Below the pieces are notes generated by a model that had not been told where the DNA came from, did no database searches, and saw nothing but the letters and a program-made list of their open reading frames with translations. Of a DNA stretch of 32,686 bases, positions 4,595-29,177 are shown piece after piece (positions within the stretch are counted from its first letter, which is position 1; each line of letters begins with the position of its first letter). This DNA comes from Chloroflexota bacterium. Lineage in GTDB: Bacteria; Chloroflexota; UBA6077; SHYK01. The stretch spans positions 1 through 32,686 of the forward strand of contig DASRDP010000157.1 of NCBI GenBank assembly GCA_035652535.1. The letters run 5' to 3'. The translations under genes and the position numbers were made by a program.

Positions 4595-6895
4595 GCCGGG
4601 TGAGGGGGCCGACGCGCTGTTTCCCCGCGCATCCTCCAGGGCGCGATACACGCGCTCCGGCGTGATGGGCAGCTCGCGAATGCGCACGCCGACGGCGTCG
4701 CGCACGGCGTTGGCGATTGCCGCGGCGACGGCGCTGTTGTTTGTCTCGCCCACGGACTTCGCGCCGAACGGCCCGGGGCCCGCCTCGGGCGGAAGCAGCA
4801 CGGTGCGGAGGCGCGGAATGTCCATCTGCGTGGGGAGCTTGTAGTCCGCAAGGCTCCCCGCGACGATCCTGCCGCCGTCGACCAACAGCTCCTCCATCAT
4901 GGCGTTACCAAAGCCGTAGACGAATCCGCCATCGAGCTGGCCCTGGTATGCGATGGGATTGATCACCGTGCCCGGATCGATGGCCAGCACCGCCTCGATC
5001 GGCTGCACGGCGCCCGTCGCCGGGTCGACCTCCACCTCGATGACGTACCCGTAGAAGCTCACGCCATCCGGCCGATCCTCGCGGTTGACGGCGCTGTCGA
5101 ACTCACCCTTCGCCTCAACCGCGCCTCCGCGCAAAATTTGCTCTGCCACCGACTCGAACGGCGCCGACTCGCCCCCGTCGGCGACGAAACGCCCACCCTC
5201 GATCCGCACCTGGCCGGCCGGCCAGCCCATCACCTCGGCCGCCAGCTCCTCCAATTTGCTCTTCAGCAGCGTAGCGCTCCCGATGGTCGCCTGCCCCACG
5301 ATGTGCGTGACGCGGCTCGACCCGGCGCCGGCGTCGGGCGGCGCTTCCGCGGTGTTGCCGTACCGGACGACGACGCGCTCGGGCTCGACGTTGAGCACCG
5401 CGGCCGCCACGCGCCGGACGACGGTGGCTGAGCCGCTGCCCTGGTCTGGCGTTCCGTAGAGGGCTTCGACCTTGCCGCCCGGAATGAGGCGCAGCAGGAT
5501 CTCGGTCTTCCCCTGGCCGATCCCGTGGTGGCGAATGACGACGCCGCGTCCCCGATTCGGCGGCAGCGGGACCTTCCCCCAGCCCGTCTCCCTGCGCAGC
5601 AGCTCGAGTAGCTCCTCGCCCCGCGAGTGGTGGACCGGGTGCCCCGCCGTACTGATGTCCCCGGAGCGGATCACGTTCATCACTCGAAACTCGAGCGGAT
5701 CGATCCCCATCTCCCGCGCGATGTGGTCGATGTGCTCCTCGCCCGCCAAGTCCGCGATCGTCGCACCGGGCGCGCGCATATGACCGGAGGGCGTCGTGTT
5801 GGTGTATACGGTGAAGGTCTTGAGGTCCGTGTGCGCCACGCTGTATGTGTCGAGCGGATCGAACGCGGCGGCGATGTTCGGGCCGGGCATCGGCTTGGCA
5901 CCGCCGTAGGCCCCGCCGTTGAAGTAGGCGCGCTGCTGATGCGCGAGGAGCCGCCCGTCGCGCGTCACGCCCGTGCGGAGATAGATCCGTGCGTCGTGCC
6001 GCGGGCTAGTGTTGGTCAGCTCGTCGGCGTACGTCATCACGGACTTGATCGGACGTCCGGTGGCCTGTGCGAGAAAGAAACACGGAAACTCCTCGATGGT
6101 GTGACCCTTACCGCCGAAGTCGCCCCCGATGAACATCGAGTCGACGACGATCCGCTCTTCCGGGGTCCCCGTCGCGATGGAAAGCTGATGGCGAAGGGAG
6201 AACGGAGCCTTATTGGTGGACCGAACGTGCACAGTTCCGTCGCGCTCGACCCACACGACGCAGGCGTGGGGCTCGATGTAGCCTTGATGCTGCCGCGGAC
6301 CCACGTAGACGTCCTCGAAGATTCGATCCGCTCGCTCGAAGACGCGCTCGATCTCTCCTTCGCCCTTGTGCGCCTCGAGATAGCCCTGCAGGTTGGGGTG
6401 GGGCCGCGGGGGACGCTCGCCGCCGAGGTAGTAGTAGCCTTCCGGGTTCGGGTGGAGGATCGGAGCGCCGTCCCGGAGGGCCTCCTCCGGATCGAACACC
6501 GCCGGCAGCTCCTCGTACTCGACGTGGATGAGACGCACGGCTTCCTCGGCCGCCTCACGCGTCTCCGCCGCGACCGCGGCGATGCGCTCGCCGATGTACA
6601 GCACGCGGTCGTACGCCAGGACCGGCCAGTCGTAGAGAAAGCGCCCGAAGCGCCGCGGGCCGACGTCGCGGCCGGTAATGACGGCGTGGACGCCCGGAAC
6701 CTTCTTCGCGGCCTCGGTCTCGACGTGCAGGATCCGCGCGTGCGGGTATGCGCTCGTCGCGAATTTTGCCCACAGGGTGCCCGGGAGCTGCAGATCCCCC
6801 GTGTATTGGGCGCGACCGCTCACCTTTAGCGGTCCCTCGATCCGGTACTCGGGCTCGCGCAGAACCTCGTCGATCTCAGGGGTAACATGGAACAT
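4586..6895 (-). CDS. Xanthine dehydrogenase family, molybdopterin-binding (large) subunit
   Basis: A 769-residue molybdenum hydroxylase catalytic subunit (aldehyde oxidase / xanthine dehydrogenase / CoxL superfamily). The N-terminal a/b-hammerhead domain covers about residues 18-130 (KVSGRAQYTGDLQLPG). Molybdopterin-binding motifs follow: IGGDFGGKG with GGDFGGK at 257-263, then SGHMRAPG near 370, and the C-terminal FGAKSVGE, where Glu717 corresponds to the catalytic base. The CO dehydrogenase active-site loop with Cys is not visible, so CO oxidation is unlikely; an aromatic aldehyde, purine or N-heterocycle is more likely. The ATG at 6895 has GGAG ten bases upstream. The FAD and 2Fe-2S subunits normally encoded beside it are absent on both sides, so it is an orphan. 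The last residues (SAPSPGRA) are encoded within the palindromic repeat. Confidence 0.9.
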   Translation of the reverse strand: MFHVTPEIDEVLREPEYRIEGPLKVSGRAQYTGDLQLPGTLWAKFATSAYPHARILHVETEAAKKVPGVHAVITGRDVGPRRFGRFLYDWPVLAYDRVLYIGERIAAVAAETREAAEEAVRLIHVEYEELPAVFDPEEALRDGAPILHPNPEGYYYLGGERPPRPHPNLQGYLEAHKGEGEIERVFERADRIFEDVYVGPRQHQGYIEPHACVVWVERDGTVHVRSTNKAPFSLRHQLSIATGTPEERIVVDSMFIGGDFGGKGHTIEEFPCFFLAQATGRPIKSVMTYADELTNTSPRHDARIYLRTGVTRDGRLLAHQQRAYFNGGAYGGAKPMPGPNIAAAFDPLDTYSVAHTDLKTFTVYTNTTPSGHMRAPGATIADLAGEEHIDHIAREMGIDPLEFRVMNVIRSGDISTAGHPVHHSRGEELLELLRRETGWGKVPLPPNRGRGVVIRHHGIGQGKTEILLRLIPGGKVEALYGTPDQGSGSATVVRRVAAAVLNVEPERVVVRYGNTAEAPPDAGAGSSRVTHIVGQATIGSATLLKSKLEELAAEVMGWPAGQVRIEGGRFVADGGESAPFESVAEQILRGGAVEAKGEFDSAVNREDRPDGVSFYGYVIEVEVDPATGAVQPIEAVLAIDPGTVINPIAYQGQLDGGFVYGFGNAMMEELLVDGGRIVAGSLADYKLPTQMDIPRLRTVLLPPEAGPGPFGAKSVGETNNSAVAAAIANAVRDAVGVRIRELPITPERVYRALEDARGNSASAPSPGRA

Positions 6896-20315: not shown

Positions 20316-21572
20316 CTACTCGTACCGTAGGGCATCGATCGGGTTGAGCCGCGCCGCGCGCAGCGCGGGGTAGATCCCAAAGAACAACCCGACCGCCGCC
20401 GACACGCCGACCGCGAGCACCACTGACTCCGGCGCGATCACGCTCGGGATCGCCTGCGTGCCGATGCTCACCTTCCCGACCGCGCGCGATATGCCGATTC
20501 CCAGCAGCACGCCAACCGCGCCCCCGGCCACGCTCACGACAACCGCTTCGATGATGAACTGGGCCAGAATGTCTCGGCGGCGGGCGCCGACGGCCTTGCG
20601 TATCCCGATCTCGTGGGTCCGCTCGGTCACCGATACCAGCATGATGTTCATGATTCCGATGCCACCGACCGCTAGCGAGATCCCGGCGACCGCGCCAAGA
20701 AACGCCGTGAAGAGGCCGGTCACCTGGTTGATCGTCGCAAGAAAATCGCGCTGCGAGCTGATGACGAAGTCATCGGTCGCCACGCGGTGGCGCTGCCGAA
20801 GCAGCTCGCCGATGGACTGAATGGCCTGGTCGATCTGCCCCTCGCTGGCGACCTGCACGGTGATCGTTCCCACGAGGTTGCCCGCCTGCATGGAGCGGGA
20901 CGGGCTCAGGCGAGTCATCACGGTCGTGATGGGCATGAATGCCTGGTCGTCCAGATTCTGAAAGCCACCCCCGCCCTTGGTCTCCATGACTCCGATCACG
21001 CGGGCGTTCGTCCCGGATTCGCCGAAGGCGCTGATACGCACCATCTCGCCGATGGGATCGGAATCGCCGAAGAGGTTTTGCGCTACGGTGGCGCCGAGGA
21101 CGATCACGCTCGACCGCGCGGCGACCTGCGTGTCGTTGATGAATTCCCCGGAGGCAACGTGGAAGTTGCGCACCAACTCGTAGTCCGGCGTGACACCAGC
21201 GACGCGGGACCGCCAGTTCTCGCCGTGGGCGATGAATTGCGCAGGCACGTCGCGCTCGGGCGCGACGCCGCTCACGAGCTCTGGCAACTGCTCCCCGATG
21301 GCCTGCGCGTCCTCGTAGGTCAGAGTCTGCGCCCCGCCAAATCCGCCCGCGACGTTTGTCTGTTGGCGGGCCTGGCCGGGGCTCACGAAGAGGAGATTGG
21401 TGCCCAGGGATTGGACCTGCGCGGTGATCGAGGCCTGCGCTCCCTTGCCGAGAGACATCAGCGCTATCACGGCTGCCACCCCGATGATTACGCCCAGCAT
21501 CGTCAGCGATCCGCGAAGCTTGTTCGCGGCCAGCGCGCGTACCGCCACGCGAAAGCTTTCGAATAGGCTCAT
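20316..21572 (-). CDS. MacB-like ABC transporter permease (FtsX/MacB_PCD)
   Basis: A 418-residue permease. ATG 21572 is chosen because AGAGGG lies six bases upstream and because the preceding ATPase gene stops 19 bases before it. An N-terminal membrane segment (LTMLGVIIGVAAVIALMSLG) is followed by an extracytoplasmic MacB-type periplasmic core domain at about residues 45-280, then three membrane segments of the FtsX domain with SVTERTHEIGIRKAVGARR and YPALRAARLNPIDALRYE, the usual C-terminal ending. Type VII ABC exporters of this kind move substrates by mechanotransmission, together with the ATPase and the adaptor encoded upstream. The substrate is unknown; lipids, antimicrobial peptides and macrolides are typical for the family. 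Confidence 0.9.
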   Translation of the reverse strand: MSLFESFRVAVRALAANKLRGSLTMLGVIIGVAAVIALMSLGKGAQASITAQVQSLGTNLLFVSPGQARQQTNVAGGFGGAQTLTYEDAQAIGEQLPELVSGVAPERDVPAQFIAHGENWRSRVAGVTPDYELVRNFHVASGEFINDTQVAARSSVIVLGATVAQNLFGDSDPIGEMVRISAFGESGTNARVIGVMETKGGGGFQNLDDQAFMPITTVMTRLSPSRSMQAGNLVGTITVQVASEGQIDQAIQSIGELLRQRHRVATDDFVISSQRDFLATINQVTGLFTAFLGAVAGISLAVGGIGIMNIMLVSVTERTHEIGIRKAVGARRRDILAQFIIEAVVVSVAGGAVGVLLGIGISRAVGKVSIGTQAIPSVIAPESVVLAVGVSAAVGLFFGIYPALRAARLNPIDALRYE

Positions 21573-21591
21573 CGATACCCTCTTCGATTCC

Positions 21592-22431
21592 TCACGCGGC
21601 TTCGCGACTCGGAAGGCGCCGGAGCACCTCGTCCGCCTGGACGGGATTCGGCACGACCTCGTCGCTATCGATTCGACCGTCTCGAATCCGCACAATACGT
21701 CTGGTGTGCTGGGCGATGTCCGGCTCGTGGGTCACGGCGATGATGGTGATGCCGCGATCCCGATTGAGACGCTGGAGCAGCTCCATGATCTCCTCGCTCG
21801 ATCGGGTGTCGAGGTTCCCGGTCGGCTCGTCGGCGAGCAGGATCGCGGGGTTGTTGATGAGCGCGCGGGCGATGGCGACGCGCTGCTGCTGGCCACCGGA
21901 CAGCTCGGCCGGGCGGTGGTGCATGCGATCGCCCAGTCCCACCTCCAAAAGCGCGGCAGCGGCCCGCTGCTTCCGATCGTGCACGCCGGCGTAGATCAGG
22001 GGAAGCTCCACCTGCTCGGTGGCGGGGATCCGCGGCAGGAGATTGAATGTTTGAAAGACGAAGCCAATCTTCCGGTTCCGAATGGCCGCCAGCTCGTCGT
22101 CGGAGAGGGTGCTCGTCTCGATCCCGTCCAGCTGGTATGACCCGCCCGTTGGCTGGTCCAGGCAGCCAATGATGTGCATGAGAGTCGACTTCCCCGAGCC
22201 GGACGGTCCCATGATGGCGAGGAATTCCCCGCGATGGACGTCCAGGTCCACGCCGCGGAGCGCGCGCACGACGTTCTCGCCGAGTCGATATTCCTTCGAC
22301 AGGCCGCGAATCCGGATCACCGGTGTCTCATTCGCGCCTCGCGCTTGGTCGGCGGGCAAGGGACGGGTCTCAGGCGGGCGCTCCTCACCCCGATCTGGCT
22401 TTCTCTCGGTCCCGGTCTCAAGCGTGCGCAT
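21592..22431 (-). CDS. MacB/LolD-type ABC transporter ATP-binding protein
   Basis: A 279-residue ATPase. Its ATG (22431-22429) shares a base with the stop codon of the adaptor gene (TAATG), indicating translational coupling. After about 38 charged residues the domain shows Walker [13 protein letters not shown], followed by [11 protein letters not shown]; the Q loop is [10 protein letters not shown]; the signature is [15 protein letters not shown]; and Walker B is [12 protein letters not shown], with the switch His in [10 protein letters not shown]. These are hallmarks of the LolD/MacB/FtsE group. It powers the permease encoded 19 bases downstream. Confidence 0.94.
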
Positions 22432-24893
22432 TAGAAGCCACCTCCTGGCGCGCGTGCGCCACCGGGCGCGCCGACGCCGGCTCCGGGAACTGCGGCCCGA
22501 GCCGCGGTCGCCGGCAGCACGACCTCGTCGCCCTCCCGCAGGCCGGACAGAACCTCGGAATACTGGTCGTTTGCAATTCCGACGGTCACGGTCTGGCTCT
22601 GCGGGCCGCTCGGTGTGACGAGCTTGACGGTTCGAGTCTGTCCACTCTTCGTGAGGGCGCGGTTCGGCACCATGAGCGCGTCATCCTTTTTGGCCGTCGT
22701 GATGGCGGCCGTCGCCGTCATGCCGGGGCGAACGTCCTGCGCGTCGATCATGGTGATGGAGACGAGATAGCTGACGACGCCCTGCATCGTCGTTCCCGAA
22801 GGTGAGATAGCGCCGACCTCGCCCCTGAACCGACGGTCCGGCAACGCGTCGAACGTCACGACAGCTGGTTGTCCGACGGCGATCTGGGGAATGTCCGTCT
22901 CGCCGATCTGCACGTCCGCGCGGACCTGCGCCGCGTTTACGAGGGTAATCCCCGACTGGGTGGTGCCGCCGGTGATGGTCGCCGCGGCTCCCGCCGCGGT
23001 CTCGCCCTGGTTCATGTTCACCGCCCCTACGACACTGGCGAAGGGCGCCGTGAGGGTGGCGTTATCGAGATTGAACTCGGCCGTCTCGAGGTCCGTTTGC
23101 GCCTGACGGACGGTCGCGCGCTGGGCGTCGATATCAGTGGCAAGGTACGGGACACGCTTCAGATCGAGGTTGGCCTGCGCCTGAGCAATGGCGTCTCTCT
23201 GCGCCTCGATGTCGTAGCTGGTCGCCGGGTTCGACGTCGTGTCCAGCTTCGCCCGCGCCGCCTGCAGCGCCTGCTGAGCGGCCAGGACGTCCGAATCGAG
23301 GGGTGAGGTGAGCTGGTCGAGGCGCGCCTGGGCCGATCGAACTGATGACGTGCTGGCATCGACCGCCGTCTGCGCAGCCGCGAGGCTCGCGCTGGCGCCG
23401 GTCGCCGCAACCTGCGCCTCACGATCTCGCGCCGCCACGAGGCTGGCCTGGGCGGCCGTCACGGCTCCCTGAGCGGCCGCCACGGCGTCGGCGCTCGGGG
23501 AGAGGAGCTGATCCAGCTTCGCCTGCGCGCTGGCAAGCGCCGCCCGCGCGCTATCGGCGTCAGCCCGCGCCGATGCGACGTCCTCCGCCCGCGGAGCTAC
23601 GAGCGCATTGAGCTTGGCCTGCGCCGTCGAGAAATTCGACTGAGCCGCGTCGACCTGAGCGGTCGCGGCGGCGATCTCTTCATTGGTGGGGCTTTGCTGG
23701 AGCTGGACAAGCTTGGTCTGCGCGCTGTCGACATTGGTTTGTGCCGCGGCGACCGCGTGGTCGTCGGCCAGCAGCTGGGCGGACTCCGCCGGTGTGAGGC
23801 CGGAGAGTCGCGCCGCGTTGGCCTCGGACGTCGTTGTGGGCACCGGGACCCGAGCGGCTGCGTAGTCGGCCGCGCGCTTCGCGATCGCGGCCTGGAGGGC
23901 GGACTGCGCCGTCGACAAGGCCGACCGAGCCGAGGCGAGATCCACGCTCGATGGCCCGACCTTCACCTGGGCGAGATTCCGCTGTGCTGCATCGAGCGCC
24001 CCGCGCGCGCTGGCAACGGCCGCGCGGTCCGCGGTCACGTCGTTCGCTGACGGGTTGAGCAGCACGTTGAGTCTCCCCTCAGCGCTCTGCAGCGTGTTCC
24101 GCGCCGTCTGGACGGCCGTCTGCGCGGCAGCCACGTCTGCTGGCTGCGGGCTGAGCAGCGCGTTCAGTTTCTGCTGCGCGCTGGCCAGCTCAGCTTCCCC
24201 GCTGACCACCCCGGCCCGTGCGGAGACCTGATCCGTTGCGGCCTGGATTTGCGCATCCTGGAGCTTGGCGAGATCGCTCGTCAGCTGGGCCTGCGCGCTC
24301 TCCATCGCGCCCTGGGCCGCCACCAGGTCAGCGCCCTGCGGCGCGAGGAGGACCTGCAAGCTTGCCGTCGCGGCATCCACCGCGGCCTGGGCCGCCGCGA
24401 CGTCCTCCGGTCGACCGTACTGCATCCCGGCGAGCTTCGCCTGCGCGGCGGCCAACGCGGCCTGCGCGCCCTCCACGTCCTCGACGCGTGGTCCGTCGAG
24501 CATCTGGCGCAGCTTGATCTGCGCCACGTTCAGCCGCGTTTCGGACTGTTGAATCGCCAGGCGCAGGTCGGCAGAATCGAGGCGGGCCAGGGGTTGGCCT
24601 TCCTCGACCTGGTCGCCCACGTGCACCAGGACCTCGGCGATGGTGCCCGAGCCGCGGAAGTTCACCCGGCTCAGGGCCGACGAGGCGACGGTGCCCGTCG
24701 CATTGACGGTCGCGGCGATGGAGCCGCGCGTCACGCGGGCGGTCTGCTGGGTGGTGGGCCCGGGCGACGGGTGCACCCGGTTGTAGACGACGTACGCCGC
24801 CGCGACGGTCGCGACGAGCGCGATGAGGGCTGCGAGAATGGGTCCGATCGCCGGGGCGCGCCGCCGGCTCAGACCTGGCGCTGCGATCCGCAT
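22431..24893 (-). CDS. HlyD/MacA-like membrane fusion adaptor with giant repeat-built helical hairpin
   Basis: An 820-residue adaptor, about twice the usual length of the family. ATG 24893 has GAGGAGGAG immediately upstream, so a GTG start at 24920 is rejected. Residues 17-37 form a membrane anchor. A lipoyl half ([27 protein letters not shown]) precedes an Ala/Gln-rich helical region at about 112-612, and the second lipoyl half ([19 protein letters not shown]) follows. Beta-barrel and membrane-proximal domains come next (residues 655-800), and the tail is Gly/Ala/Pro-rich. The helical region consists of 12 degenerate units with a P-x3-D-(V/I/L) type motif. The protein should link the MacB-like permease to an outer structure. 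No TolC-like gene is present. Confidence 0.9.
23130..24479 (-). repeat. Twelve-unit protein repeat in the adaptor hairpin
   Basis: This segment encodes residues 139-588 of the adaptor. Units begin with a motif of the form L-x2-L-x-x-P-x3-D-(V/L/I)-x-x-A. The acidic residue of each motif sits at 139, 164, 189, 253, 285, 318, 406, 438, 469, 535, 561 and 587. Spacings are 25, 25, 64, 32, 33, 88, 32, 31, 66, 26 and 26, so they are multiples of about 25 or 32 and read almost the same in either direction. The centre, residues 349-368, is a Pro/Thr-rich turn. Confidence 0.75.
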
Positions 24894-25079
24894 CGGCTCC
24901 TCCTCGCGCGCGCTGATCACCTACATCGTGCCCGTTGGAGGAATGCGCGCCCAAGGAAACCGGGGGTGGCCGTCGCTACCCGTGCAGCGTGTTTTGCAGG
25001 CTATCCGACAGGGTGGGCGCAATTGCGCGGCGGATCTCGGTCTGTGGCAGCCGGTGGTGGCCTCAGCGGACCCGGCTTA

Positions 25080-25121: not shown

Positions 25122-26492
25122 CTATGGCGAGCTGGAAACGCGATGGACCGTCGTGACCGAATACGGTCGTCCCTGGGCGTGGCAGAGCGCGCACGACTCG
25201 ACCCCGCCCGACGTTTGGCTCGCCGCGTGGGCAAACGCCTGTGGGCTGTCGTGGCACCCCGTGCACGCAGCCGTCACGGGCGGAAGCTCGCGTACGACCT
25301 GTCCGTCCAGGATCACGCGCAGCGCCGCCGACGCTTCGAGGGTCTGGCTGATCATGTACGAGTCCTGTACATGGCACAGCGCGCAGTTCGCCCGGTCTTT
25401 CGGAAAGGGGTGGACGGCCGCGAGATCGACCGGCTGCGGCGCCGTCGGGGACCCGCCGTAGACGACGAACGGACGCGTGAGGTCCTCGCCGGTGTGGATT
25501 CGGTGGATGAAGTTGCGGAACTGTACCGGTTCGGGTGGCAGTGGCCCGCCGACCGCCATCCGCTTATCAGCATCACTTTGCGTCGCGTTGTGGCACATGA
25601 CGCAAAACTCGGTGTTGCGGCGCGTGCCTCCATGCGTCGCCAGCGTCCCGTGACAGGCGTTGCAGTTCTCCGTTTTCACGATCTGGCGTCGCGGCACCGG
25701 CGCGGGATCCGTGACCGGGAAGTAGAAGACCGTGTTGTAGCCAACGTCGCGAGCGGGTGGGACGCCGGCAACGGCGCTGGGAAACTCCAAATAGCCCTCG
25801 GTGGCGACGGCAAACGTGCCTTGCGCCTCGGCGGGAAGCTGGGCGCGAAAGACGTAGCGCGCGGAGCCGTCGGGCAGGCTTTCCGCCCGCCGAGCGTCCT
25901 CGCGCTGCGCCCATTGGTAGTCGACCGTCGGGCCGGCAACGGTGAGGTTCAGGGCCGTCATCTCGGACGGCGCGATGGCCTGCCCCGCGTTGTCCCGGAT
26001 GCGGAACCGAACGGACGGGCTCTGGCCCGGCGCCCCGCTCGCTTCGAGCACGTCGAAGTTCACCCCGCGGACCGGCGGCGGCGACACGTCCGGTGGCTCC
26101 GGCTCCGACGGGATCGCGATGTAGGCGATGACGTTGACGAGCTGATCGTCCGAGAGCTGGTCCGGCGCGAACCCGGGCATCTGCGCGGAGCCCCGCCGAA
26201 CCTGGGTCCGGATCAGGGCCGTGCGCTCTCTTGTGGCCATATCGAAGGACTGTCGGCCCTCGGTGTGGCATTCCTGGCACTGCGCACGAAATACGAGACG
26301 GCCCGCCTGCCGGTCGGCGTGAGTCAGATCGACCTCGCCCCCCTGCGCGCTCGTCGATGGAGCCGTCGCAGCCGGCGGCGCTCCGGGAGCGGCGGTCATC
26401 GAGAATCGGTTCACCACGACGGCGAGCAGCACGCCTACCAGTAGTGCGAGCGCGACCAGGGCGATGCCGGCGCGGTCGCCGAGCGCGGTCAT
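25122..26492 (-). CDS. Hexaheme c-type cytochrome: monoheme domain plus OmcA/MtrC-like multiheme domain
   Basis: A 456-residue exported cytochrome with an N-terminal membrane anchor at residues 8-28. Six CxxCH haem sites are visible, with His at 76, 281, 301, 374, 414 and 438. The first belongs to a class I cytochrome c domain (about 55-128) with likely axial Met105 in SAQMPGF. A beta-rich stretch (140-265) follows. The rest has the layout of OmcA/MtrC-family cytochromes: NCNACHGTLATHGGTR, FCVMCHN, FIHRIHTGEDL and NCALCH. The ATG overlaps the cytochrome b-c stop by four bases (ATGA), with GGAGGGGAG upstream. It is the last gene of the Rieske/cytochrome b-c operon, so it probably takes electrons from that complex to an acceptor outside the membrane. 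Confidence 0.85.
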   Translation of the reverse strand: MTALGDRAGIALVALALLVGVLLAVVVNRFSMTAAPGAPPAATAPSTSAQGGEVDLTHADRQAGRLVFRAQCQECHTEGRQSFDMATRERTALIRTQVRRGSAQMPGFAPDQLSDDQLVNVIAYIAIPSEPEPPDVSPPPVRGVNFDVLEASGAPGQSPSVRFRIRDNAGQAIAPSEMTALNLTVAGPTVDYQWAQREDARRAESLPDGSARYVFRAQLPAEAQGTFAVATEGYLEFPSAVAGVPPARDVGYNTVFYFPVTDPAPVPRRQIVKTENCNACHGTLATHGGTRRNTEFCVMCHNATQSDADKRMAVGGPLPPEPVQFRNFIHRIHTGEDLTRPFVVYGGSPTAPQPVDLAAVHPFPKDRANCALCHVQDSYMISQTLEASAALRVILDGQVVRELPPVTAACTGCHDSPQAFAHAASQTSGGVESCALCHAQGRPYSVTTVHRVSSSP

Positions 26493-27928
26493 TTGCTCCC
26501 CTCCGAGAACGACATGACGTATTGCGCCACTTCCTCCACATCCTCATGGCTGAGCTGCCCCAGAAATGCGGGCATGATGGCCGTGCGCGACATCCGTTGC
26601 GGCTCCTCGATGTAGGAGTGGATGTAGTTTGCATCGCGGCGCTTGCCCTCACCGACCAGCGATGGCGCCTCGGCGGTCCCCTCTCCGCTCGCGCCGTGGC
26701 AACCGGCGCAGTACTGGCGGTACTGCGTTCGGCCGAGGACCTGCATCGCCGTCAGGCGGACGCCGTGCTCCTCCACCCCGGCCGGCGGCGTCGTCAGCAT
26801 CGCCGCGGTGGTAAGGAATCCGATTCCCCCGGCGAGTAGGACCGCCACACCGCTGGCCATCGGCCGTTTGCTGAGGCGACGCTCGCTTCCCGCGTCGAGG
26901 AACGGTAGGAGAACGAGCGCCACGAACGCCAGGAGCGGCAGCAGGACCACCCCAACCCACTCGAGCTGACCGGGAAAATACTTGAGGAGCTGGAAGAGGA
27001 ACAGGAAATACCACTCGGGCCTCGGGATGTATGCGGTATTCGTCGGGTCGGCTGGCGCCTCGAGCGGCGCGCCGAAGACCATCGCCAGACCCAGGAGCAC
27101 GAGGAACACCACCACGGCGATGGTGAGGTCTTCGACGATGATGTCGGGCCAGAACGGGCGCCCCGCTTGCTTGAAGAATGCGTAGCGGGCCGCGTCGGGC
27201 CGATAACCCCGCGTCGCTTCTTCTTCGCGAAGGCGCTCCGCCGCAGCCTGCTCGGCATTCCAGAGGGTCGGTGGCACGGACACGCCATGCCAGATCACCA
27301 GCGCGACGTGGCCGACCAGGAGCGAGATCAACGCGCCCGGAAGGAGAAGCGTGTGGAGGGCGTAGAAGCGCGTGAGAGCGGCGGCGCCCAGCTCAGTGCC
27401 CCCGCGCGCGAGCCGCAAAACGAAGTCCCCAATCAGCGGGATCGTCCCGGCCATGTTCGTCCCAACGCTCGTCGCCCAATACGCCTTCTCATCCCATGGG
27501 AGCAGGTAGCCCGTGAACGAAAAGGCGAGGGTGAGGGCGAGGAGCCCAACGCCGAGGAGCCACGTCACCTCCCGCGGGCGCTTGTAGGCGGCGAGCGTGA
27601 ACACGACGACGAGGTGCGCGCCCACGAGGACCACCATCGCGCTAGAGCCCCAGTGATGAAGTCCGCGGACGAGGCGGCCGAAGGCGACGCGATCGTTGAT
27701 GTACGACACGCTCTCATACGCGTGGTCCGGAGTCGGCGCGTAATACAGGGCCAGGACGACGCCGGTCACCAGCTGCAGGGTGAACACGAAGAGAGCGGCG
27801 AAGCCGAGCGTGTAGAGCAACCCGACGCCGAGGGGCACATTGCGCAGGAACAGCGTCCTGCCCAGCGTCGTGGTCCCGGCTCGCTCTTCGAGCCATTCGC
27901 CCAGGGAGCCCGCGCGGACGAATCGCAT
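26489..27928 (-). CDS. Cytochrome b (N- and C-terminal domains) fused to cytochrome c
   Basis: A 479-residue core subunit of a quinol-oxidising bc complex. Membrane helices of the cytochrome b N-terminal domain carry haem ligands His91 and His105 (14 apart) and His192 and His207 (15 apart). The 15-residue spacing is typical of cytochrome b6/b6f and Gram-positive types. The quinol-oxidation motif PEWY is at 304-307 in the C-terminal domain. After a last helix (about 358-379) comes a fused class I cytochrome c with CAGCH at 407-411 and axial Met452 in AIMPAFLGQLS. The fusion replaces a separate cytochrome c1. The gene starts eight bases after the Rieske gene and overlaps the hexaheme cytochrome gene. 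Confidence 0.93.
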   Translation of the reverse strand: MRFVRAGSLGEWLEERAGTTTLGRTLFLRNVPLGVGLLYTLGFAALFVFTLQLVTGVVLALYYAPTPDHAYESVSYINDRVAFGRLVRGLHHWGSSAMVVLVGAHLVVVFTLAAYKRPREVTWLLGVGLLALTLAFSFTGYLLPWDEKAYWATSVGTNMAGTIPLIGDFVLRLARGGTELGAAALTRFYALHTLLLPGALISLLVGHVALVIWHGVSVPPTLWNAEQAAAERLREEEATRGYRPDAARYAFFKQAGRPFWPDIIVEDLTIAVVVFLVLLGLAMVFGAPLEAPADPTNTAYIPRPEWYFLFLFQLLKYFPGQLEWVGVVLLPLLAFVALVLLPFLDAGSERRLSKRPMASGVAVLLAGGIGFLTTAAMLTTPPAGVEEHGVRLTAMQVLGRTQYRQYCAGCHGASGEGTAEAPSLVGEGKRRDANYIHSYIEEPQRMSRTAIMPAFLGQLSHEDVEEVAQYVMSFSEGSK

Positions 27929-27936
27929 GGCGGCGC

Positions 27937-28494
27937 CTACAGCGCGACCCGGTTCGGGACGCCGACCTGGAAGTCCTGGTACTGCGTCATCAAGAGTCCG
28001 CCGTCGATCCGATACCTCAGCTCATCCATGGCTCTCGGCGGTGGCCCATCGAGGACGCGGCCGTCATCGCGCGCGAATACGCCGCCGTGACACGGGCAGA
28101 CGAACGTGCTGGACTCGGCGCGGTAGCCCACGAGGCACCCCAGGTGGGTGCACCGAGCGTTGCGCACAACCACGTTCTCTTCCGTCGATCGATACACCCA
28201 TACCGCACGGGGGAGCGTTGTCTGGAGGTATCCGTCGGCACGGCGGATCCCGAACTGAACCATGCGTGGTTGGCCGACGGCGAAGTCGGCGACCTGACCC
28301 AGGGAGATCCAAGGAGACTCGTCGCGGCGGCCTGCGGGCGAGACGATGGCGCCGATGACCGGCACGCCCAGCGCCGCCGCGAGAAAAGCGCCCAGCCCGG
28401 CGCCGACCCGAGCCAGGAGCGCTCGGCGCGTACTCGTTCCCGGTTCTGACCGGTCGTCGGCCTCCGACCGCGGATGCCCCGGCGGGATTGTCAT
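27937..28494 (-). CDS. Rieske 2Fe-2S protein of the bc complex
   Basis: A 185-residue iron-sulfur subunit. The N-terminus has a twin-arginine-like STRRALLARVGAG followed by a hydrophobic helix (residues 31-52) that acts as Tat signal and anchor. Cluster ligands are Cys115 and His117 in CTHLGC, and Cys133 and His136 in CPCHGG; the other cysteines (120, 135) would form the disulfide typical of high-potential Rieske proteins. It takes one electron from quinol at the Qo site and passes it to the cytochrome c domain. AGAGGTGG lies about seven bases before the ATG. It is the first gene of a three-gene minus-strand operon. The 194 bases upstream, shared with the divergent cupredoxin gene, show no strong promoter. 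Confidence 0.94.
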   Translation of the reverse strand: MTIPPGHPRSEADDRSEPGTSTRRALLARVGAGLGAFLAAALGVPVIGAIVSPAGRRDESPWISLGQVADFAVGQPRMVQFGIRRADGYLQTTLPRAVWVYRSTEENVVVRNARCTHLGCLVGYRAESSTFVCPCHGGVFARDDGRVLDGPPPRAMDELRYRIDGGLLMTQYQDFQVGVPNRVAL

Positions 28495-28688
28495 CCGTCA
28501 CCACCTCTGCCCGCCAAGTGTAAGCAATCGGCCGATCACGGAGGCACCAGCCAGCGCGGTAGTTCGTGGCTATCCAAAAGGAGGGGCCGCGTTGGAGTCG
28601 TGCCAATATCGAAACGTTGCTCTAAGGTGCTGATGGGTGCACACTTCTCACAGGACTCCCGATCTTCGTGCGGAGGAGATATGCGTTC

Positions 28689-29177
28689 ATGAATAGCATC
28701 ACGCGCTGCCCGTGGGGACGCCGCGCCACCGTGCTGGCGATAGCGCTCATCGCACCCGCCGCCGTTCTGCTCTCGGCCTGCAATAGGGGCTCGGCGCCGG
28801 TCACCACCATCAACGTGAGCGGTGCTGACTTTGCCTTTACGCCGGACAAGGTTTCGGTGCCGGCCGGCAAGGTTCACCTCGTCTTTACCAACCAGAGCAC
28901 GACCAACCAGCACGAGCTGTGGGTCTATCCACAGAACCAGCCGCGCCTCCAGGAGATGGTTCAGGCAAAAGAAGCCGGGCAGGACGTCGAAGAAAAGGAC
29001 TACCTCCAGAACGTGGCGGGGGACGTTGAGGACGTGCCGACCGGTCAGACGCAGAGCTTCGATGCCACGCTCCAGCCAGGCACGTACGAGTTCGGCTGCT
29101 TCGTGACCAGCACCGTGGATGGTCGGCCACGGAACCACTACGCCCTGGGTATGCATTTCCAGCTCCAGGTCATCTAA
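28689..29177 (+). CDS. Cupredoxin-like copper lipoprotein
   Basis: A 162-residue lipoprotein with lipobox LSAC at Cys31 after a hydrophobic signal. The ATG at 28689 follows GGAGGAG by ten bases. The mature domain has a cupredoxin strand pattern (INVSGADFAFTPDKVSVPAG, VHLVFTNQS). Type 1 copper ligands are suggested by His75 in TNQHELW, Cys137 in YEFGCF, His150 and Met155 in NHYALGM. The Cys-to-His loop is 12 residues, longer than in typical small cupredoxins, and a charged insertion (about residues 82-112) precedes the last strands. It would carry single electrons at the outer membrane face. Its position, divergent from the bc operon, suggests it exchanges electrons with that chain. Confidence 0.78.
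   Translation: MNSITRCPWGRRATVLAIALIAPAAVLLSACNRGSAPVTTINVSGADFAFTPDKVSVPAGKVHLVFTNQSTTNQHELWVYPQNQPRLQEMVQAKEAGQDVEEKDYLQNVAGDVEDVPTGQTQSFDATLQPGTYEFGCFVTSTVDGRPRNHYALGMHFQLQVI

Follow-up and report, generated by a model that had tools for sequence, protein, structure and literature searches.

A bc-complex operon of a Chloroflexota bacterium ends in a hexahaem cytochrome with a predicted half-MtrC module

Where would the electrons of a quinol-oxidising complex go, or come from, when its operon ends in a gene for a membrane-anchored cytochrome with six haems? This question is raised by the window, i.e. the whole stretch of 32,686 nucleotides from a Chloroflexota bacterium (assembly GCA_035652535.1, contig DASRDP010000157.1), in which three genes on the minus strand form a Rieske/cytochrome b (bc) operon, the last of them encoding the hexahaem protein P0001. 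The original prediction had read this protein as a monohaem domain joined to an OmcA/MtrC-like module and had proposed an outward electron route to an external acceptor. Judged by its sequence, the module appears to be domains III-IV of MtrC, half an MtrC and not a full member of the OmcA/MtrC family, and we give about an even chance to a bc complex whose enlarged c-type arm has its electron partners outside the membrane, a GMC flavodehydrogenase being one possible partner.

The kinship of the module is carried by domain models, structure comparison and phylogeny. The Pfam model Mtrc-MtrF_II-IV_dom (PF22113) matches residues 269-450 of P0001 with an E-value of 5.6e-32 and 111.1 bits against a gathering cut-off of 30, whereas the NCBIfam model for decahaem OmcA/MtrC cytochromes (TIGR03507) reaches 2.7e-53 and 181.5 bits, which is under its cut-off of 209.3, and its alignment takes in only the second half of the model (positions 333-672 of 672). 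Matches of this strength lie far outside what chance would give, and the two model collections are in agreement on each of the three proteins. In a profile search, residues 365-638 of MtrF were matched by the beta and pentahaem domains of P0001 (sequence E-value 4.9e-33). The AlphaFold model, built with 8 sequences, has a mean predicted local distance difference test score (pLDDT) of 55.5 and is confident in the beta domain only (mostly 72-94 across residues 141-230); a Foldseek search with it gave MtrF, MtrC, UndA or OmcA proteins as all of the first 15 matches. For the module tree, ten-haem relatives from other genomes were cut into N- and C-halves, which separated at 100/100 support with the P0001 module among the C-halves. 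Because of the NCBIfam span, the MtrF match and the tree position, the module is assigned to the C-terminal half of a decahaem OmcA/MtrC cytochrome. The OmcA/MtrC-like module of the original prediction has therefore held up, but as one repeat and not as a whole OmcA/MtrC protein. A PHROGs search gave no match.

The haem sites are consistent with this assignment. Six CXXCH motifs are found in P0001 (at residues 72, 277, 297, 370, 410 and 434), together with IHRIHTGE at residues 329-336. In the C-half alignment exactly five His outside the CXXCH motifs are invariant, one per haem, and these candidate distal ligands of the pentahaem domain (287, 330, 333, 422 and 450) fit bis-His ligation of all five module haems, which makes such ligation a candidate arrangement. 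The C-half placement and the five invariant His taken together imply that the module would be the counterpart of MtrC domains III-IV, each haem having one candidate distal ligand. That half an MtrC can stand alone is known for the other half, as a truncation to domains I-II folds by itself with bis-His haems; the truncated and the full MtrC both titrate between -400 and 0 mV, and domains III-IV hold the sites for reduction of flavin mononucleotide (FMN), Fe(III) citrate and OmcA (PMC12304082).

The three genes and their parts, all on the minus strand, are as follows.

27937..28494, minus strand: Rieske [2Fe-2S] protein, 185 amino acids; Pfam PF00355, 1.6e-10.
26489-27928, minus strand: cytochrome b-c fusion gene, 479 amino acids, with the N and C parts of Cytochrome_B and a C-terminal cytochrome c.
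26789..27928, minus strand: cytochrome b part; PF00033 2.5e-45, PF00032 4.8e-10.
26501..26746, minus strand: monohaem cytochrome c domain at the C terminus of cytochrome b, CAGCH at residues 407-411; PF13442 6.5e-10, PF00034 6.7e-9.
25122..26492, minus strand: hexahaem protein P0001, 456 amino acids.
26403..26486, minus strand: membrane helix of P0001, residues 3-30; helix 3-30 in the AlphaFold (AF2) model and hydrophobic sequence.
26103..26345, minus strand: monohaem domain of P0001, residues about 50-130; CBB3-type PF13442 on residues 61-125, 1.1e-12.
25707..26066, minus strand: beta-barrel domain of P0001, residues about 143-262; counterpart of MtrC/MtrF domain III.
25125..25688, minus strand: pentahaem domain of P0001, residues about 269-456; PF22113 5.6e-32, counterpart of MtrC/MtrF domain IV.

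The linkage of these genes is as tight as had been claimed, with a gap of 8 bases (27929-27936) between the Rieske and cytochrome b-c genes and a stop codon of the latter that is overlapped by the start of P0001 (26489-26492, ATGA on the coding strand). Two hallmarks of a bc complex are present: both cluster boxes of the Rieske protein, CTHLGC and CPCH, are intact on motif inspection, and the cytochrome b part has two His pairs (91/92-105 and 192-207, the second b6-like with 14 residues in between) and a PEWY Qo motif. The Rieske protein starts with a twin-arginine motif followed by a membrane helix, and the cytochrome b part combines a b6-type N half and a subunit IV-type C half within a single chain, in which residue inspection found, apart from those of the c domain, no Cys to which a c-type haem ci could be attached. 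In P0001 the membrane helix, by which the expected membrane anchor is borne out, is followed by a short Ala/Pro linker and by the monohaem domain with a CQECH haem motif and MPGF as the likely distal Met. By Pfam, the c-type candidates for accepting electrons from the Rieske protein are the c domain fused to cytochrome b and the monohaem domain of P0001; the operon position is consistent with contact between P0001 and the quinol-oxidising complex, as had been proposed. A cupredoxin-type lipoprotein gene (28668-29177, plus strand; PF13473) lies divergently beside the operon; its His, Cys, His and Met residues follow the order of type 1 copper sites, and its product is a possible mobile electron carrier for the bc complex.

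The host cell is likely to be a monoderm because no Omp85 was found in its genome, which is 98.3% complete (Omp85 was found in 7 of 14 control genomes); the presumption of the original prediction is thereby upheld. Genome searches found one bc complex, a caa3 oxidase with fused c domain, a soluble cytochrome c, Ccm genes and an alternative complex III with a five-haem ActA, molybdenum-enzyme-like and iron-sulphur parts, two NrfD-like multi-helix proteins, ActD and ActE. The locus of the latter was found with PF03916, the NrfD_2 model having matched nothing, controls included, and in it (L084:3440-11300) ActB is split into a molybdenum-enzyme-like and an iron-sulphur gene. A family search of the genome found no other OmcA/MtrC protein, and P0001 and ActA were the only multihaem proteins found with one general family model, which is no full haem census; all genome-wide haem counts rest on such family searches. 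This inventory is not in itself unusual, since a Chloroflexi genome with two PetAB complexes, alternative complex III, caa3 oxidase and a decahaem cytochrome was described by Hug et al. 2013 (PMC3971608). Downstream of the operon, in this presumed monoderm, genes for a MacB-type permease, an ATPase of the ATP-binding cassette (ABC) type and an HlyD/MacA-type protein are found (20316-24920, minus strand), the last being 829 amino acids long with many helical repeats.

The hexahaem fusion gene is real and rare. A survey of 400 Chloroflexota genomes, all 29 genomes of the class and 393 of another class brought up the same operon in one other genome only, a 'Chloroflexi bacterium' metagenome-assembled genome (MAG) of the same family (L002/G001), so that the synteny survey suggested at the outset has confirmed the order Rieske, cytochrome b-c (74% identity) and full-length hexahaem gene (63%) once. 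Between the two genomes the ratio of nonsynonymous to synonymous change (dN/dS) is about 0.22 for the hexahaem gene and 0.13 for cytochrome b, values which are rough as dS is near 1.35. The sister Rieske gene (near 6300-6850, plus strand) has SPCH where the window has CPCH; this change of a cluster-ligand Cys to Ser is either a MAG error or a changed cluster. Of the 29 genomes of the class, the only two with the full-length fusion are those that carry this cytochrome b-c, and genome searches of three other family members (76-88% complete) found neither. Beyond the sister genome the full fusion is absent from the genomes surveyed, where strong matches cover the module only (about residues 139-455) and belong to stand-alone decahaem genes or fragments. 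Such stand-alone genes, 44-48% identical to the module, occur in Chloroflexota of the same order, the same phylum and another class (G008, G269, G412) as well as in records titled Deltaproteobacteria or Proteobacteria (L003-L007), and an Acidobacteria record (L008) holds a 38% relative; none had a bc complex beside it in the neighbourhoods read.

The origin of the other half of P0001 may be read from a class relative, G018 (L070), in which the C-half of cytochrome b is followed by two c domains in series, the second being 35% identical to the monohaem domain of P0001. By this resemblance the monohaem part appears to belong with bc complexes, as in the b-c-c chain of G018, and the simplest history would be that the second c domain of a b-c-c complex split off and was fused to half of a decahaem gene. 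In further class relatives (L071, L073, L074, L076 and L078) the Rieske-b-c genes adjoin haem-copper oxidase genes; given the c-domain fusion or the oxidase adjacency in the class relatives, the complex is therefore tied to the c-type pool. A 321-amino-acid gene at a contig start of G018 was considered as a second half-MtrC and rejected, as contigs C126 and C9 overlap and between them appear to contain a single decahaem gene of the usual kind, split where the contigs end. Decahaem proteins of another Chloroflexota class (L097, L099, L100, L101 and L102) have collagen-like GXX stretches, 18-57 residues long, close to the N terminus and, in 4 of the 5, a lipobox-like motif by script search. A collagen-like spacer suits a surface protein that needs to stand off the membrane, and these proteins are possible wall-spanning surface cytochromes of monoderms.

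For the enlarged c-type arm the following mechanism is proposed. The Rieske protein, cytochrome b-c and P0001 would assemble into one quinol oxidoreductase of complex III type, in which the electrons of quinol would pass from the Rieske protein to the fused c domain and on to the monohaem domain of P0001, which would hand them to soluble cytochrome c or the cupredoxin and to the caa3 oxidase. The pentahaem half would form a redox junction at the outward-facing side of the membrane, giving electrons to a partner there or taking them from it. The best named candidate for this partner, as a donor, would be a GMC flavodehydrogenase with a gluconate-2-dehydrogenase-type small subunit: in the sister genome, GMC oxidoreductase and Gluconate_2-dh3 genes directly follow the hexahaem gene, and the host has such a pair on contig C27, 79% and 64% identical to the sister pair, with no haem protein or cytochrome gene near it in the 16 kb read. 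Gluconate 2-dehydrogenase itself is a membrane-associated flavoenzyme with a c-type cytochrome (PMC6472588). The genomic link between the dehydrogenase and P0001 is suggestive. Entry of electrons from the dehydrogenase is preferred over exit because bis-His haems are expected to be of low potential; forward flow into MtrC-type haems would forfeit energy gain since the Q cycle needs acceptors above the quinol couple, while a low-potential donor could pass electrons to the monohaem domain at no such cost.

Several points weigh against the enlarged arm. The AlphaFold model of the pentahaem domain is poor (pLDDT < 50), the fusion is known from two genomes only, and the GMC adjacency is known from a single place, where a contig ends, and does not recur in the window. 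Assembly of the three proteins into one complex is itself an inference from sequence, the haem potentials of P0001 could be raised above the MtrC-type range, and as alternative complex III already covers the flow from quinol to oxidase, the bc complex may have a separate role, extracellular electron transfer (EET) included.

The simplest rival is a plain complex III in which the hexahaem protein is an extended wire or docking arm to the caa3 oxidase, with neither an external nor a side partner. The oxidase adjacency of the bc genes in class relatives speaks for it, as does the same mono- plus pentahaem logic in the alternative complex III of the host (ActE, ActA); it is nevertheless unlikely, as such a complex would have no need of five further haems whose type is normally of low potential, the operon lies away from the oxidase locus in this family, and the retained half of MtrC is the substrate-binding one. 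That same half is also an argument for the outward route, in which electrons would run from the bc complex over the monohaem domain and the half-MtrC to an acceptor at the monoderm surface, be it a mineral, a flavin, a humic substance or another compound. The retained domains III-IV carry the FMN, Fe(III) citrate and OmcA sites in Shewanella, so that P0001 may conceivably act on soluble acceptors, flavins for example (PMC12304082); there is apparently no outer membrane to cross, Geobacter bc complexes are encoded with multihaem cytochromes (PMC2825233), and bidirectional EET is described in a Chloroflexota isolate (PMC5808234). Outward transfer by P0001 is thus plausible. However, haems of the MtrC type, between -400 and 0 mV, are poor partners for the Rieske protein and for haems of the His/Met type, and the Q cycle would be weakened by them; the linkers of P0001 are short, with no lipobox and no collagen-like or wall-spanning spacer; neither a partner for onward transfer nor an MtrCAB-like conduit gene beside P0001 was found; the genome encodes an aerobic caa3 oxidase; and the searches described above gave no other OmcA/MtrC protein and ActA alone as a further multihaem protein. 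With both thermodynamics and anatomy against it, delivery of electrons to an external acceptor, solid or dissolved, which the original prediction had put forward as a possible route, is not the likeliest reading and becomes a minority possibility, somewhat less probable than the plain complex III. Its most specific form, a one-piece quinol:extracellular-acceptor oxidoreductase of monoderms in which the substrate-reducing half of MtrC sits on the c-type arm and energy conservation and EET are combined with no conduit, is more doubtful still.

The opposite direction of flow must be considered as well. The bc complexes of iron oxidisers are known to run in reverse, and the half-MtrC could be fed from outside, for instance by Fe(II) or by some organic substrate, for uphill reduction of quinone, and thereby for NADH (reduced nicotinamide adenine dinucleotide), while alternative complex III runs forward. 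Two quinol:acceptor complexes in the host genome and an entry module of low-potential type would fit such reverse use, but no genes for carbon fixation or donor oxidation turned up in the stretches read, with no search aimed at them, and we regard it as very unlikely. Scarcely credible is a catalytic role for P0001, whether as a subunit of a nitrite or a tetrathionate reductase, an alternative already raised in the original prediction, or as some other multihaem enzyme. A weak NrfH match through one motif is all that points this way, whereas no NrfA or tetrathionate reductase match was found, the MtrC/MtrF models are far stronger and every haem of the pentahaem domain has an invariant candidate distal His; a catalytic role as either reductase was rejected on the domain searches and these His.

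How the operon compares with known systems is best judged from its parts. With the decahaem cytochromes OmcA, MtrC and MtrF, P0001 shares the barrel plus pentahaem repeat, the order of CXXCH motifs, the IHRIHTGE-type distal His motif and a detectable fold match. It differs in having one repeat and six haems in all instead of two repeats and ten haems, in its N-terminal membrane helix and His/Met-type monohaem domain, in its place in a bc-complex operon and in scoring below the TIGR03507 cut-off. While members of the family are surface lipoproteins or secreted and use an MtrA/MtrB-type conduit, P0001 has a membrane helix and no lipobox, and no MtrA/MtrB-type conduit genes lie within the window (MtrB was not searched genome-wide). 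The barrel-pentahaem repeat of MtrC thus looks like a portable unit, its substrate-meeting half known from Shewanella being joined here to a respiratory quinol oxidase in a lineage apparently devoid of an outer membrane. The operon offers a compact system for asking if a Q-cycle complex can have low-potential multihaem modules wired to it, and in which direction electrons then flow.

Among quinol-oxidising systems, alternative complex III, of which the host has one, also passes electrons from quinol to a mono- plus pentahaem arm (ActE, ActA), but its core is unrelated, being NrfD-like and molybdenum-enzyme-like, and ActA of the host is not matched by the MtrC-type module of the window in a genome search. 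The quinol oxidases CbcL, MtrH and MtoC likewise fuse a membrane quinol oxidoreductase to a multihaem part, but with a six-helix b-type unit and no Rieske/cytochrome b complex (PMC6295460). A bc operon from a genome of the same class (L082:1365-4550, G016) also closes with a multihaem cytochrome that is anchored in the membrane and gives a weak match to PF22113 (4.1e-8); it shares the Rieske gene but differs by eleven haems in another layout, by split b6 and subunit IV genes and by two predicted membrane segments, and the eleven-haem cytochrome has a C-terminal membrane helix. The anammox complexes Kuste4569-4574 and Kustd1480-1485 (PMC12954380) and the Geobacter complex GSU2930-2937 (PMC2825233) likewise combine Rieske and cytochrome b genes with multihaem c-type subunits which replace a simple c1 or stand beside it. 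The operon of the window, by contrast, lacks an NAD(P) module, and a c domain is fused to its cytochrome b; the anammox and Geobacter subunits are not described as MtrC-type in these two papers, and in the collections and papers searched no bc complex with an MtrC-type module was found described, other multihaem subunits being known. Multihaem subunits of bc complexes are therefore familiar, and what is new here is an MtrC-type half joined to the c-type arm of such a complex.

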